Position numbers and translations under genes: made by a program
Notes under the pieces: generated by a model
Databases searched by the model: none
Seen by the model: only the letters and a program-made list of their open reading frames with translations
What the model was told of the DNA's origin: nothing
Source: Halobaculum limi
GTDB lineage: Archaea > Halobacteriota > Halobacteria > Halobacteriales > Haloferacaceae
Direction: 5' to 3'
Length of the DNA: 64,000 nucleotides
Assembly (NCBI RefSeq): GCF_029490015.1
Contig: NZ_CP120468.1
Coordinates: forward strand, 620,001 to 684,000
Shown: positions 1 to 51,185 of the stretch, piece by piece
Numbering within the stretch: the stretch's first letter is position 1
Layout of the letters: the number at the start of each line of letters is the position of its first letter

Positions 1-166
1 TTTCCACTCCGGGGGTGATCTGTCGCTCGTGTTGCTCACTCTGCTCCGCTGCTCACAGCTCACTTCGCCGCCGTGGCTCCGAGGCCTCGCTCACTACGTC
101 CGCTCGGCCTCGCCCGTTCACGGGTCGCGATGCTCCCCGTTCACTACGGGGCGTCACTCGCGCCGC
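1..166. repeat. Intergenic hairpin-rich repeat region
   Basis: No gene is visible. The stretch lies just past the stop codon of the minus-strand DUF460 gene. Read on the minus strand it holds two hairpins. One is ACGGG-11 nt-CCCGT at 120-140 with loop GAGCATCGCGA. The other is CGAGGCC-19 nt-GGCCTCG at 80-112, whose loop also starts GAGCGG and ends GAGCGA. A competing CCCCGT-TCACT-ACGGGG hairpin overlaps the first at 135-151. The same hairpin family recurs near 37.3, 44.4 and 50.5 kb. Confidence 0.7.
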
Positions 167-37182: not shown

Positions 37183-37330
37183 GCGCGGGTGTCCCGTTCG
37201 TACTCGTCCCCGTGAGCGACGGCGCTGTCGCTATCGGGTCGCGGCGTCGAAAGAATCGAAGGTCGGTCGGGAAGCGATGCGAGCGTCAGGTGGTGATGGG
37301 GTGTGTGGCGTTAACCGAACTTCACTCCTC

Positions 37331-37352
37331 GCGGGTCGCTCGCGCTCCCCGC
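37331..37352 (-). repeat. Intergenic hairpin family member
   Basis: On the minus strand: GCGGG-GAGCGCGAGCGA-CCCGC, a 5-bp stem with a 12-nt loop. It is the same element type as at the window start, 44.43 kb and 50.5 kb, but with one extra loop base. It lies about 30 nt past the thermosome stop codon. Confidence 0.6.
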
Positions 37353-37359
37353 TCGGTAT

Positions 37360-37380
37360 AGAGGTTCCTTCGGAACCTCT
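37360..37380 (-). terminator. Hairpin directly after thermosome stop codon
   Basis: AGAGGTTCC-TTC-GGAACCTCT is a perfect 9-bp inverted repeat beginning one base after the thermosome stop. It is not followed by a T-run on the minus strand, so it could stabilise the 3' end or help termination rather than act as a classical terminator. Confidence 0.5.
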
Positions 37381-44432: not shown

Positions 44433-44453
44433 ACGGGGAGCGGAGCGACCCGT
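44433..44453 (+). repeat. Intergenic hairpin family member
   Basis: ACGGG-GAGCGGAGCGA-CCCGT, a 5-bp stem with the 11-nt loop typical of the family. It lies between two divergent genes, 35 nt before the ATG of the small membrane protein. A second short hairpin, AGCCT-TGCG-AGGCT, is adjacent at about 44408-44421. Confidence 0.6.
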
Positions 44454-48457: not shown

Positions 48458-50437
48458 CTAGAACTTCTCCAGTAGGCCCTCGTAGAACTCGGGGTCAGCC
48501 GCCTCGCCTGCCAATTTCTCCACGATGAGTTCCGGCGTCGACCGCGCGAGGTGGTCTTTTCGCGGCGAACGGTTCACGACGAGTTCGCCGTCGTCCAGTC
48601 CCACCGCCTCGATGCCGTCGACCGCCACGTCGACGGCGGCGGCCTCGCGTATCTGTCGCGCGAGGTGGGAGACGAACACCGCCGTCGCCCCCTGATCGTC
48701 GAGGGCTTCGAGGATACCCGCGATGATCTTCGCCGACGCCCCCGGCTCGGTGATCGACTCCAGTTCGTCGACGAGGACGAGACGGCCCGCCGCGCCCGAC
48801 ACGAGGTCGCCGAAGTCACGCAGGGTCGACTCGAACGCGCCCGCGTCGAGCGTCCCCTGCGACTTCGCATAGTAGTGCAACTCCGAGACGCGGCCCACTC
48901 GCGCGGACGCTGCGGGGACGGGGAGGCCCATATGTGCGAGGGTGACGACGAGCGCCACCAAGTCCAATGTCGACGTCTTCCCGCCGGAGTTGACGCCCGA
49001 CAGGAGGGTGACGCCGGAGACGGCGTAGTCGACGGGTTCGACTTCTTCGACCGACACGTCCAGCAGCGGTGAACGCCCGCCCTCGACGTCGAAGCCGCTC
49101 CCCTCGGCGTCGAGGTCGGCGACGACGCAGTCGAAGTCGCGGGCGAACCGCGCGACGGCCAGTTCCACGTCGAGTTCCAGCGCGTCGGCCACCAGGTCTT
49201 GGGCGGGGTCGCGGAGGACAGCCAAGTCCTCCGCGAGCGACGACTTGAGCGCCGCGGCGCGCCGGTCGCGGGCGGCCTTGAGTTCGGTTCGGAGGCGGTT
49301 CAGCGGTTCTTCGTTGTGCTCGGTCGGGAACGTGGGATCGCCCGCGAACACCCGCTCGGTGAACTCCGCCTCCGCGTCAGTCAGGCCCAGCGAGTCCGCA
49401 AAGTGCTCACGTGCCCGGCGGATGGCGGCGTCGTACTCGTCGGCCAACTCCCGCGAGAGGAGGCTGTCGACGCGCGCGCCCTGTTCGACCAGCGAGAGGA
49501 AGTCGGTCCCCTCGATGGTGACGTCCTGTTCGCGGATGGCGTCGCGGAGGTGGTCGTTGGCGACCGACTCCGCCGTCGACACGGCCGCGTCGAGGTCGTC
49601 GACGGCGTCGGTGAGGCGCTGTAACTCCTCGTCGCCGCGGATCGTTCCGTCGTCGTCGAGTCGCGAGAGGGCGTCCCGGAGCGCCTTGGGGTCGAGGGCC
49701 GGGTCGATGCCGGCGGCCTCGTGGACCGACAGCGCCGCAAGCAGTACCTCGCGGTTCTCGGCGAAGAAGGCGAGCAGACGCTCGGGGACGACCTCTTCGG
49801 GGTGGTCCTCGGGGTCGGTGATGACGCGCACGTCGCCGTCGACGTCGACGCCTGCAAACTCCTCGTCTAGCGCGACGACCGTAGTGTACGACCGCGCGAG
49901 TTCCGACAGCCCGCGGGCATCTTCGACCACCTCGACGGAGAGTTCGGGGAACGCATCCTTCGCCTCGGCGTAGCGCTCGGCGTCGGCGGTTGCGAGCGCC
50001 CGTTCGCGAACGCGCAGGCCCCGTGGATCAGACACCTGTTCCACGTCCGCGAGGGCGTCGAGCACCGCCTCGTCGGGATCACGCTCGACGGCGTCGGCGG
50101 CCCACTCGCGCACCTCTTCGATGCGGGACTCGGTCGCGGAGGGGTACAGCGTCCGAAGGCGTTTGGCCGCGTAATCGGTGACGGCGCGGTCTTGGATCAG
50201 TCCAAGCGCATCTTCGTACACCTCGCGTGCGCGGTCGGTCGCCAGCCAGCCACCTGGGTCGTCGTGCCGTTTTCGGATCGCGCCGCGGGCGATGGCCGCC
50301 GCCCGGCCTTCCGTGAGGCCGGGGGCGCGCGCCAGCGTCGCCACGTCGCCGCGGCGCAACGCCTCCTCGGCCCCGTCGAGGTCAGCGAGCGTCTCGGCGG
50401 TCTTCTCGCCGACGCCCGGTACCGACGTGAACTCCAT
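48458..50437 (-). CDS. MutS-family ATPase with N-terminal helix-hairpin-helix
   Basis: 659 residues. An N-terminal HhH module (FTSVPGVGEKTAETLADLDG) is followed by a central helical lever region. A MutS-type C-terminal ATPase comes last: GVNSGGKTST (Walker A), then LVLVDELESITEPG (Walker B) and a switch His in FVSHLARQI. The N-terminal mismatch-recognition domain of MutS1 is absent, so mismatch repair is unlikely; junction, branched-DNA or recombination-intermediate processing is more plausible, as in the archaeal MutS5-like group. It reads leftward and its stop is 2 nt from the HalX gene's stop. Confidence 0.88.
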   Translation of the reverse strand: MEFTSVPGVGEKTAETLADLDGAEEALRRGDVATLARAPGLTEGRAAAIARGAIRKRHDDPGGWLATDRAREVYEDALGLIQDRAVTDYAAKRLRTLYPSATESRIEEVREWAADAVERDPDEAVLDALADVEQVSDPRGLRVRERALATADAERYAEAKDAFPELSVEVVEDARGLSELARSYTTVVALDEEFAGVDVDGDVRVITDPEDHPEEVVPERLLAFFAENREVLLAALSVHEAAGIDPALDPKALRDALSRLDDDGTIRGDEELQRLTDAVDDLDAAVSTAESVANDHLRDAIREQDVTIEGTDFLSLVEQGARVDSLLSRELADEYDAAIRRAREHFADSLGLTDAEAEFTERVFAGDPTFPTEHNEEPLNRLRTELKAARDRRAAALKSSLAEDLAVLRDPAQDLVADALELDVELAVARFARDFDCVVADLDAEGSGFDVEGGRSPLLDVSVEEVEPVDYAVSGVTLLSGVNSGGKTSTLDLVALVVTLAHMGLPVPAASARVGRVSELHYYAKSQGTLDAGAFESTLRDFGDLVSGAAGRLVLVDELESITEPGASAKIIAGILEALDDQGATAVFVSHLARQIREAAAVDVAVDGIEAVGLDDGELVVNRSPRKDHLARSTPELIVEKLAGEAADPEFYEGLLEKF

Positions 50438-50745
50438 TCGGGACGGGATACCACAGCGGGGGTCAAAACCGTGCCGGGGGCCAGGACGAGCGAAGCGAGT
50501 CCTCGGAAACGCGAACGGCGAGTGGAACGAGCCGTGAGCGGGGCTGCGTGGGGGAAGGAGCGAACGAAGTGAGCGACCGAGACCACGAACAAGCGAGCGG
50601 GGAGTGAAACGACCCGCGAGAAGCGCGTGGCCGAACGAAGTGCGGCCACGAGTATTCGAACGGCGAGTGAAACGAGCCGTGAGCAGAGGGAGAGACAGCG
50701 AAGCGAGTCACCAGCGAGCGACCCGCGACCGACTGGCTGTCGCGA
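50438..50745. repeat. Cluster of five covarying hairpins
   Basis: A 308-base gap without a gene. It contains, in order on the plus strand: AGGAC-11-GTCCT (50483-50503), ACGGC-11-GCCGT (50515-50535), GCGGG-11-CCCGC (50597-50617), CGTGGCC-11-GGCCACG (50626-50650) and ACGGC-11-GCCGT (50660-50680). Four loops fit GAGYGRARCGA; the 7-bp-stem member has GAACGAAGTGC. The second and fifth copies match at 27 of 29 bases around the hairpin. Further degenerate GAGCGAA units fill the spaces. Both flanking genes read leftward. Confidence 0.7.
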
Positions 50746-51018
50746 TCAGTCCTCGTCGCCGCCGAGCATATCCCACCCGATTCGCTCCTCGATGTCCTCG
50801 ACCAGCGCCTCGACGTCGTCGACGACGCCGTAATCGGCGGCGACGCCGCCGTGTCGGTCGCCCTCCACGACGCGCCGCTGGTCGTCGTCGTAGTAGAACG
50901 GCGCACCGTCTCGACTGATACCGAACAGGTACGCGCCGTCGACGTCTGCAGGCACGTCCGAGTAATCGCTCGCGCGCACGTCGTCCGGGTGGACCGCGTC
51001 GGGGCCGGCGTCGGTCAT
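50746..51018 (-). CDS. Small acidic protein of unknown function
   Basis: 90 residues, very acidic, beginning MTDAGPDAVHPDDVRAS. Segments DGAYLFGISRDGAPFYYDDDQRRVV and EALVEDIEERIGWDMLGG suggest a compact alpha/beta fold. No motif was recognised. The ATG before TDAGPD is preferred to one five codons upstream. It is divergent from the LarE gene. Confidence 0.65.
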   Translation of the reverse strand: MTDAGPDAVHPDDVRASDYSDVPADVDGAYLFGISRDGAPFYYDDDQRRVVEGDRHGGVAADYGVVDDVEALVEDIEERIGWDMLGGDED

Positions 51019-51185
51019 GCCAACGAGTATCACGCCGGGGGCACCAATACGTTGCGGCTGTCACACACCATCCACCGACGCGCTCGCGGCGCTCCCGTCT
51101 CGGGATTCGGCCCCGTGCCGCCTGCTGGACTGGGCACACACCCGGCTTCGGGGGGCTTTTGGCTCGCGGCACCTTCGACGATGGT

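Follow-up and report, generated by a model that had tools for sequence, protein, structure and literature searches.

REPs are imperfect palindromes of 20–40 bp that lie dispersed in extragenic DNA, often downstream of genes, and fall into subfamilies with alternative complementary stem bases (PMC3733652). In the GTAG REPs, the TAG at the foot of some copies supplies stop codons (PMC3733652). Two other kinds of short hairpin invite comparison: the double-hairpin elements and GC clusters of mitochondrial DNA, short GC-rich intergenic hairpins subject to merging, shuffling, and copy-number variation (PMC4478555); and d(GCGAAGC), an extra-stable DNA mini-hairpin with a GNA loop (PMC4686876).

The haloarchaeal hairpins considered here share much with REPs and other palindromic units (GTAG and CGTC REPs, REPINs, BIMEs). 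They likewise are short and dispersed, with variable paired stems, and some have TAG at the foot. Each is a short imperfect palindrome present in many copies, mainly between genes (363 hairpins in the sampled DNA, 88% of them outside genes predicted with a simple codon-usage caller). However, they are defined by repeated GA/GA steps and a GNA tip; most copies lack an unpaired GTAG or CGTC tag, and CGTC is not apparent in the flank profiles; and adjacent copies are mostly direct (131 on the same strand, 21 on opposite strands, largely independent of gene orientation), not inverted as in many REP families. Nor was a RAYT/Y1 gene flanked by the repeats found in two hairpin-rich genomes (G000 and G212, the window's own genome included), where the Y1 transposase PF01797 has no match; elsewhere, 19 of 20 Y1 loci have no such hairpin within about 1.5 kb, and one does. 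A Y1/RAYT enzyme in cis or in trans was therefore set aside. (CGTC REPs also lack a dedicated transposase.) Because tag, transposase, and inverted pairing all fail, the family is REP-like but not a member of the REPs.

The likeness to the mitochondrial elements lies in short GC-rich intergenic hairpins and copy-number variation. These belong to a different domain of life, however; the accessible part of their description contains no G·A-step rule, and their mobility is better evidenced (PMC4478555). The apical GC-GAA-GC and the GNA tips are identical to those of d(GCGAAGC)-type mini-hairpins (PMC4686876), in which a GNA or GNNA tip caps two or more G-C pairs; inner AC and GT also occur in the haloarchaeal copies. 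Whereas those mini-hairpins are isolated oligonucleotides, the haloarchaeal tips belong to a repeat family found in nature and rest on tandem GA steps. Kink-turns and other tandem-G·A RNA motifs share the tandem G·A/A·G step, but the haloarchaeal hairpins have no 3-nt bulge, a symmetric 2×2 step, a triloop cap, and no Rfam match at gathering score. A search of the open-access literature (subscription papers lay outside its scope) found no earlier description of haloarchaeal tandem-G·A hairpins.

The window, the whole 64-kb stretch of DNA analyzed, has a G+C content of 67.6% and comes from a genome of 3.48 Mb. Its hairpins and their relevant neighbors are as follows.

80..112, minus strand: nested hairpin CGAGGCC-GA-GC-GG-AC-GTA-GT-GA-GC-GA-GGCCTCG
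120..140, minus strand: hairpin ACGGG-GA-GC-ATC-GC-GA-CCCGT, downstream of the DUF460 gene and sense to it; GA/GA is kept, the tip is not GNA
37327..37356, minus strand: hairpin with a GNRA tip (GCGA) and an outer GA/GA, downstream of the Cpn60/TCP-1 gene and sense to it; contains the inverted repeat 37331-37352
37360..37380, minus strand: 9-bp stem with GAA triloop and no GA step, directly after the Cpn60/TCP-1 stop codon
37382-39064: Cpn60/TCP-1 gene
44433..44453, plus strand: hairpin ACGGG-GA-GC-GGA-GC-GA-CCCGT, with a plus-strand ATG about 40 nt downstream of it
48458-50437, minus strand: MutS-domain gene, flanking the spacer 50438-50745
50438..50745, plus strand: same-strand array of tandem-G·A hairpins in an intergenic spacer, antisense to both flanking genes
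50483..50503, plus strand: hairpin AGGAC-GA-GC-GAA-GC-GA-GTCCT
50510..50540, plus strand: hairpin CGC-GA-ACGGC-GA-GT-GGA-AC-GA-GCCGT-GA-GCG with two GA/GA steps; inner inverted repeat 50515-50535
50547..50587, plus strand: nested hairpin, with foot CGTGG/CCACG around GA-GC-GA-AC-GAA-GT-GA-GC-GA (read from the sequence, partly present in predicted folds)
50597..50617, plus strand: hairpin GCGGG-GA-GT-GAA-AC-GA-CCCGC, with outer GA/GA flanking
50626..50650, plus strand: long-stem variant CGTGGCCG-A-AC-GAA-GT-G-CGGCCACG, with a single A·G mismatch
50660..50680, plus strand: hairpin ACGGC-GA-GT-GAA-AC-GA-GCCGT, with outer GA/GA flanking
50746-51033, minus strand: 95-aa gene, flanking the spacer on its other side

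A sequence-only reading of this DNA had proposed a family of non-coding inverted repeats: five in the main spacer, along with 120-140, 37331-37352, and 44433-44453. All were located, none of the five main copies lies inside a predicted gene, and at the listed copies the stems differ while staying complementary. Orientation relative to neighboring genes varies, as had been stated: two arrays lie sense and downstream of a gene (DUF460; Cpn60/TCP-1), one hairpin precedes a start codon, and the main array runs antisense to the genes on either side. Features that the reading did not mention are the outer GA/GA steps (50510-50540 and 37327-37356) and the hairpins at 50547-50587, 80-112 (minus), and 37360-37380. 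Hairpins of the same kind, on the same strand, also occupy the orthologous spacer of four further species in the genus; the G296 spacer includes a counterpart of the 50547..50587 nested hairpin with a different stem.

The fixed 11-nt loop assigned to these repeats does not survive. The string GAGYRNNRCGA is correct for most copies but wrong as a structure, since it is itself paired: it parses as GA-NN-GNA-N'N'-GA, in which NN pairs with N'N' and the middle three nucleotides form a GNA triloop, with C-G or T-A as its closing pair. Between the stem and the tip pairs, the GA dinucleotides of the two arms are opposed in a symmetric 2×2 tandem 5'-GA/3'-AG mismatch. A 12-nt loop noted at 37331 is present but no exception, being the same frame with the GNRA tetraloop GCGA. 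Likewise, the CGTGGCC inverted repeat exists, but its true parse is a stem of CGTGGCCG and CGGCCACG, one A·G mismatch, AC/GT, and GAA.

Further elements of this grammar emerge from other copies. Stems commonly comprise 5 bp (usually with an outer GA/GA) or 7–9 bp; in several copies the 5-bp stem is flanked by another GA/GA, beyond which pairing continues; and some hairpins are nested, as in 2x2x2x2x7. The tip is 3 nt long in 164 cases, against at most 12 for any other length, and 133 of these 164 triloops are GNA; GNRA or UNCG tips almost never occur. GC is the commonest inner dinucleotide, with AC and GT also found. At L011:5684-5724 and in G266/G296 spacer 116, nesting extends to as many as four GA/GA steps in succession, with arms GAGTGAGTGAGC and GCGAACGAACGA; the nested form in the window's own genome has one level fewer.

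Tandem G·A pairs of the sheared type favor the context 5'-pyrimidine-GA-purine-3'. The GA/GA layout is that expected for such pairs, although the sheared geometry itself is putative, read from sequence. Among 150 perfect copies, no paired position is fixed: each takes two or more pair types, with pairing kept. The loop-closing pair is C-G in 134 and T-A in 16; the inner pair is G-C in 83, A-T in 49, and C-G in 18; the first stem pair is C-G in 99, G-C in 35, and T-A in 16; and the outer stem pairs include all four types. Flanking the GA step, A-T just outside and T-A just inside are each absent (0/150). This asymmetry is what the fold predicts, because of the sheared-pair preference. Mismatches in the 2.04-Mb core set include 29 G·U and 16 A·C; G·U is rare.

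Does this grammar exceed chance? Neither intergenic hairpins in general nor 11-nt loops are enriched in the window's genome, and the loose pattern GAGYGNARCGA alone does not discriminate there (155 matches, 139 in the control). When the full grammar (stem-GA-NN-GNA/GNRA-NN-GA-stem) was searched in 464 kb of that genome (the window plus a spread 400-kb sample), 13 matches with GA/GA were found versus one in a control, the sequence reversed but not complemented, which retains composition and pairing; 11 other mismatch dinucleotides gave 0–2 matches each. In 800 kb from five other genomes, 2×2 internal loops followed by two pairs and a 3–4-nt tip comprised 187 with GA/GA versus 25 of the next type (the mirror form TC/TC set aside, as it is the same DNA on the opposite strand); these stretches were picked around pattern matches, which inflates densities and somewhat biases the stem consensus but affects the mismatch-type comparison much less. 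Finally, in 2.04 Mb of haloarchaeal DNA that leaves out the seed loci, complementarity holds at all seven flanking pairs in 150 of 1,845 GA..GNA..GA cores, versus 0.1 expected (0.25^7 × 1,845). The remaining cores form a chance hump with four to six of seven pairs broken, and swapping AG, GG, or AA for GA leaves no perfect core.

The sequence-only reading had been prepared to abandon the family if there were no excess over control sequence or no covariation in relatives. Both excess and covariation were found, which supports a real family that occurs across haloarchaea and has undergone compensating changes. The tandem-G·A hairpins are almost certainly real, mostly intergenic repeats, and what is conserved in them is a fold of one strand.

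Of 293 genomes of the order, 191 contain the pattern CGGSGAGYGNARCGASCCG; no match was found in 204 genomes from the rest of the phylum, many of which may be lower in G+C. At the pattern's two free S positions, all but four of the roughly 150 matches listed are complementary (counted by eye). In a scan across 84,980 species, 72 of the 80 matches listed are haloarchaeal by title; the other eight loci are estimated to be at about chance level. The family is almost absent outside haloarchaea. A virus-borne element was rejected, as only two viral contigs match. As for replication strand, the matches listed for G212 look mixed by strand. All five genomes of one genus in the same family (g5: G084, G092, G149, G207, G225) have no pattern match, whereas most genomes of g1, g42, g48, and g78 have between several and about 30; this difference offers a lead towards a gene that tracks the repeats. 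In a separate observation, megablast of the second replicon of the window's genome (L027:1-20000) against plasmids matched 826 Klebsiella records, most at 99% or above, besides Halobaculum (83–85%); the Klebsiella matches could reflect a short shared stretch or contaminating sequence.

Hairpin-bearing spacers are long (median 422 versus 129 nt) and evenly divided among classes (41 convergent, 40 sense, 39 divergent, and 35 antisense). Counted by hairpin, however, convergent spacers are over-represented (0.27 versus 0.18 of intergenic bases). Within 60 nt of a gene 3' end, 52 hairpins are sense and 15 antisense. A TAG stop precedes 35 of the 52 sense hairpins (array members counted separately), compared with 24% TAG among all called genes. 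TAG stands before 18 of 124 long-stem hairpins but none of 174 with 5-bp stems, whose foot is GCGA/GAGC; no window hairpin has TAG directly at its foot. Arrays start exactly at the TAG stops of unrelated conserved genes at ten loci (L184, L055, L200, L167, L047, L126, L104, L115, L133, L075); these genes, named by reading, include MutS-like, ABCE1-like, TFB-like, and others. Later units of such arrays also are preceded by TAG, a candidate insertion target or element end.

Comparison of close species reveals change within arrays. G286 and G191 have reciprocal-best proteins about 94% identical, and share a nearly identical spacer save for a 65-bp array duplication in one species and one replaced tip: GACGGGCTC.GAACGCAGTGA.GAGGCCGTC (with one mismatch) versus GACGGTCCC.GACCGGAGGGA.GGGACCGTC. 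Here the GA steps are kept and pairing is largely kept. G266 and G296 show a further copy-number change. Their spacer 116 holds a 49-nt nested hairpin of four GA steps that matches exactly between the two species, both from the window's genus, while the flanking sequence has changed. Most hairpin spacers are common to close species, so movement is not fast, and the spacer comparisons revealed no clean empty site or new insertion, so transposition to new places is putative.

These observations suggest, at about even chance, that the hairpins are single-strand modules dispersed through haloarchaeal genomes as a REP-like family, and that a factor encoded elsewhere spreads or remodels them. The GA strand would fold when single-stranded, most likely as DNA during a replication, repair, or transfer step; a putative nuclease or recombinase encoded elsewhere would recognize the G·A-distorted hairpin, and would copy, move, or exchange the modules. 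Copies landing downstream of genes would be transcribed, and might also act as structured 3' RNA. The specific proposal that a host-encoded enzyme reads single-stranded hairpins by a tandem-G·A code, copying or exchanging modules between genes, is more tentative. Several lines of evidence favor the REP-like reading: the specificity of the GA/GA step and GNA tip relative to controls, with covariation at every paired position; the clade-limited, dispersed, mostly intergenic distribution in long spacers, with even orientation classes and, counted by hairpin, an excess in convergent spacers; the same-strand neighbors (131:21), array duplication, tip replacement, and copy-number change; the frequent start of arrays at TAG stops, which recalls the stop codons provided by GTAG REPs (PMC3733652); and a tip sequence that is that of extra-stable DNA mini-hairpins (PMC4686876). 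The reading is weakened by the missing empty site and linked enzyme, and by the many spacers common to close species. It is weakened too by ViennaRNA's DNA parameters, which show no special stability of the hairpins but were not relied on for G·A and GNA steps.

Ranked second, and possible though clearly less probable, is an RNA element: the GA strand is transcribed, and its hairpins shape mRNA 3' ends (blocking exonucleases or aiding termination) or else give rise to small RNAs. On this view, any copy antisense to a gene would be a transcript of its own. The sense bias beside stop codons fits RNA better than DNA, as do T5 runs, which lie downstream of hairpins in 24 cases and upstream in three; one composite class ends in double T5 tracts, and T5C is a known transcription terminator in Haloferax (PMC7237163). 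Predicted RNA folding also is stronger on the GA strand (z = −4.0) than on the other strand (−1.1) or with DNA parameters (−1.5), and G·U slightly exceeds A·C. Yet T5 follows within 40 nt for only 24 of 356 hairpins, many from one composite class, ruling out a general intrinsic terminator. Per-spacer orientation is even, each of the five species in which the main array was found has it antisense to both genes, G·U is rare, and the tips are GNA, almost never GNRA or UNCG; these same features favor single-stranded DNA. The arguments on either side, for RNA and for DNA, are all indirect. With Rfam 15 covariance models at gathering score, only a tRNA was found in the window, and 12 related loci gave nothing beyond tRNAs and a ribosomal leader, excluding a known RNA family. 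An RNA role near gene 3' ends may nonetheless hold for a subset of the hairpins.

A second composite element was seen in other haloarchaea: GCAT-hairpin-TTCA-hairpin-TTTTTCCCCACGTTTTT, then a long imperfect stem ending in GTAAAAAGTGG. It adjoins unrelated genes (L058, L043/L065, L096, L110, L145, L179, L189, L194, and L198, there twice in tandem), had no Rfam match where tested, and looks like a dispersed element or RNA in its own right.

Alternatively, the hairpins might be extruded under supercoiling, as insulators or protein-binding sites of the nucleoid, mainly between convergent genes. The enrichment of convergent spacers and the GNA tips, of the kind that makes DNA hairpins very stable (PMC4686876), speak for such a topological element, but it is improbable. 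A two-strand cruciform does not need the same-strand polarity of the arrays, and orientation classes are even per spacer. Moreover, only one strand can use GA/GA and GNA as structural elements, since its complement would read TC/TC and TNC. Thus cruciform DNA, one of the two forms offered by the sequence-only reading, is unlikely to be what is conserved.

Less probable still is a mutational by-product, in which template switching keeps generating perfect palindromes and the fold is not under selection. This would account for the perfect stems, the compensated changes, and mismatches of both G·U and A·C types, but arm-to-arm copying would erase the GA/GA mismatches, which instead are the most constant feature, and the four-step hairpin of spacer 116 is identical in two species despite changed flanks. 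Chance or an artefact of codon and GC composition has a negligible claim: a GC-rich genome does hold many short palindromes, and hairpins as such are not enriched, but the reversed-sequence and alternative-mismatch controls near zero, the perfect cores, and the intergenic placement rule it out.

The most constant part of this repeat family, across much of an archaeal class, is a non-Watson-Crick step: tandem GA plus a GNA tip. This strongly suggests that a single strand adopts the fold in living cells and that some factor recognizes it. With this grammar, intergenic DNA of haloarchaea can be annotated by a simple sequence search, and both the choice between RNA and single-stranded DNA and the identity of the enzyme are directly testable in genetically tractable haloarchaea. 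If a host-encoded enzyme does read such a tandem-G·A code, many haloarchaeal intergenic regions would have been shaped by one structure-guided process.
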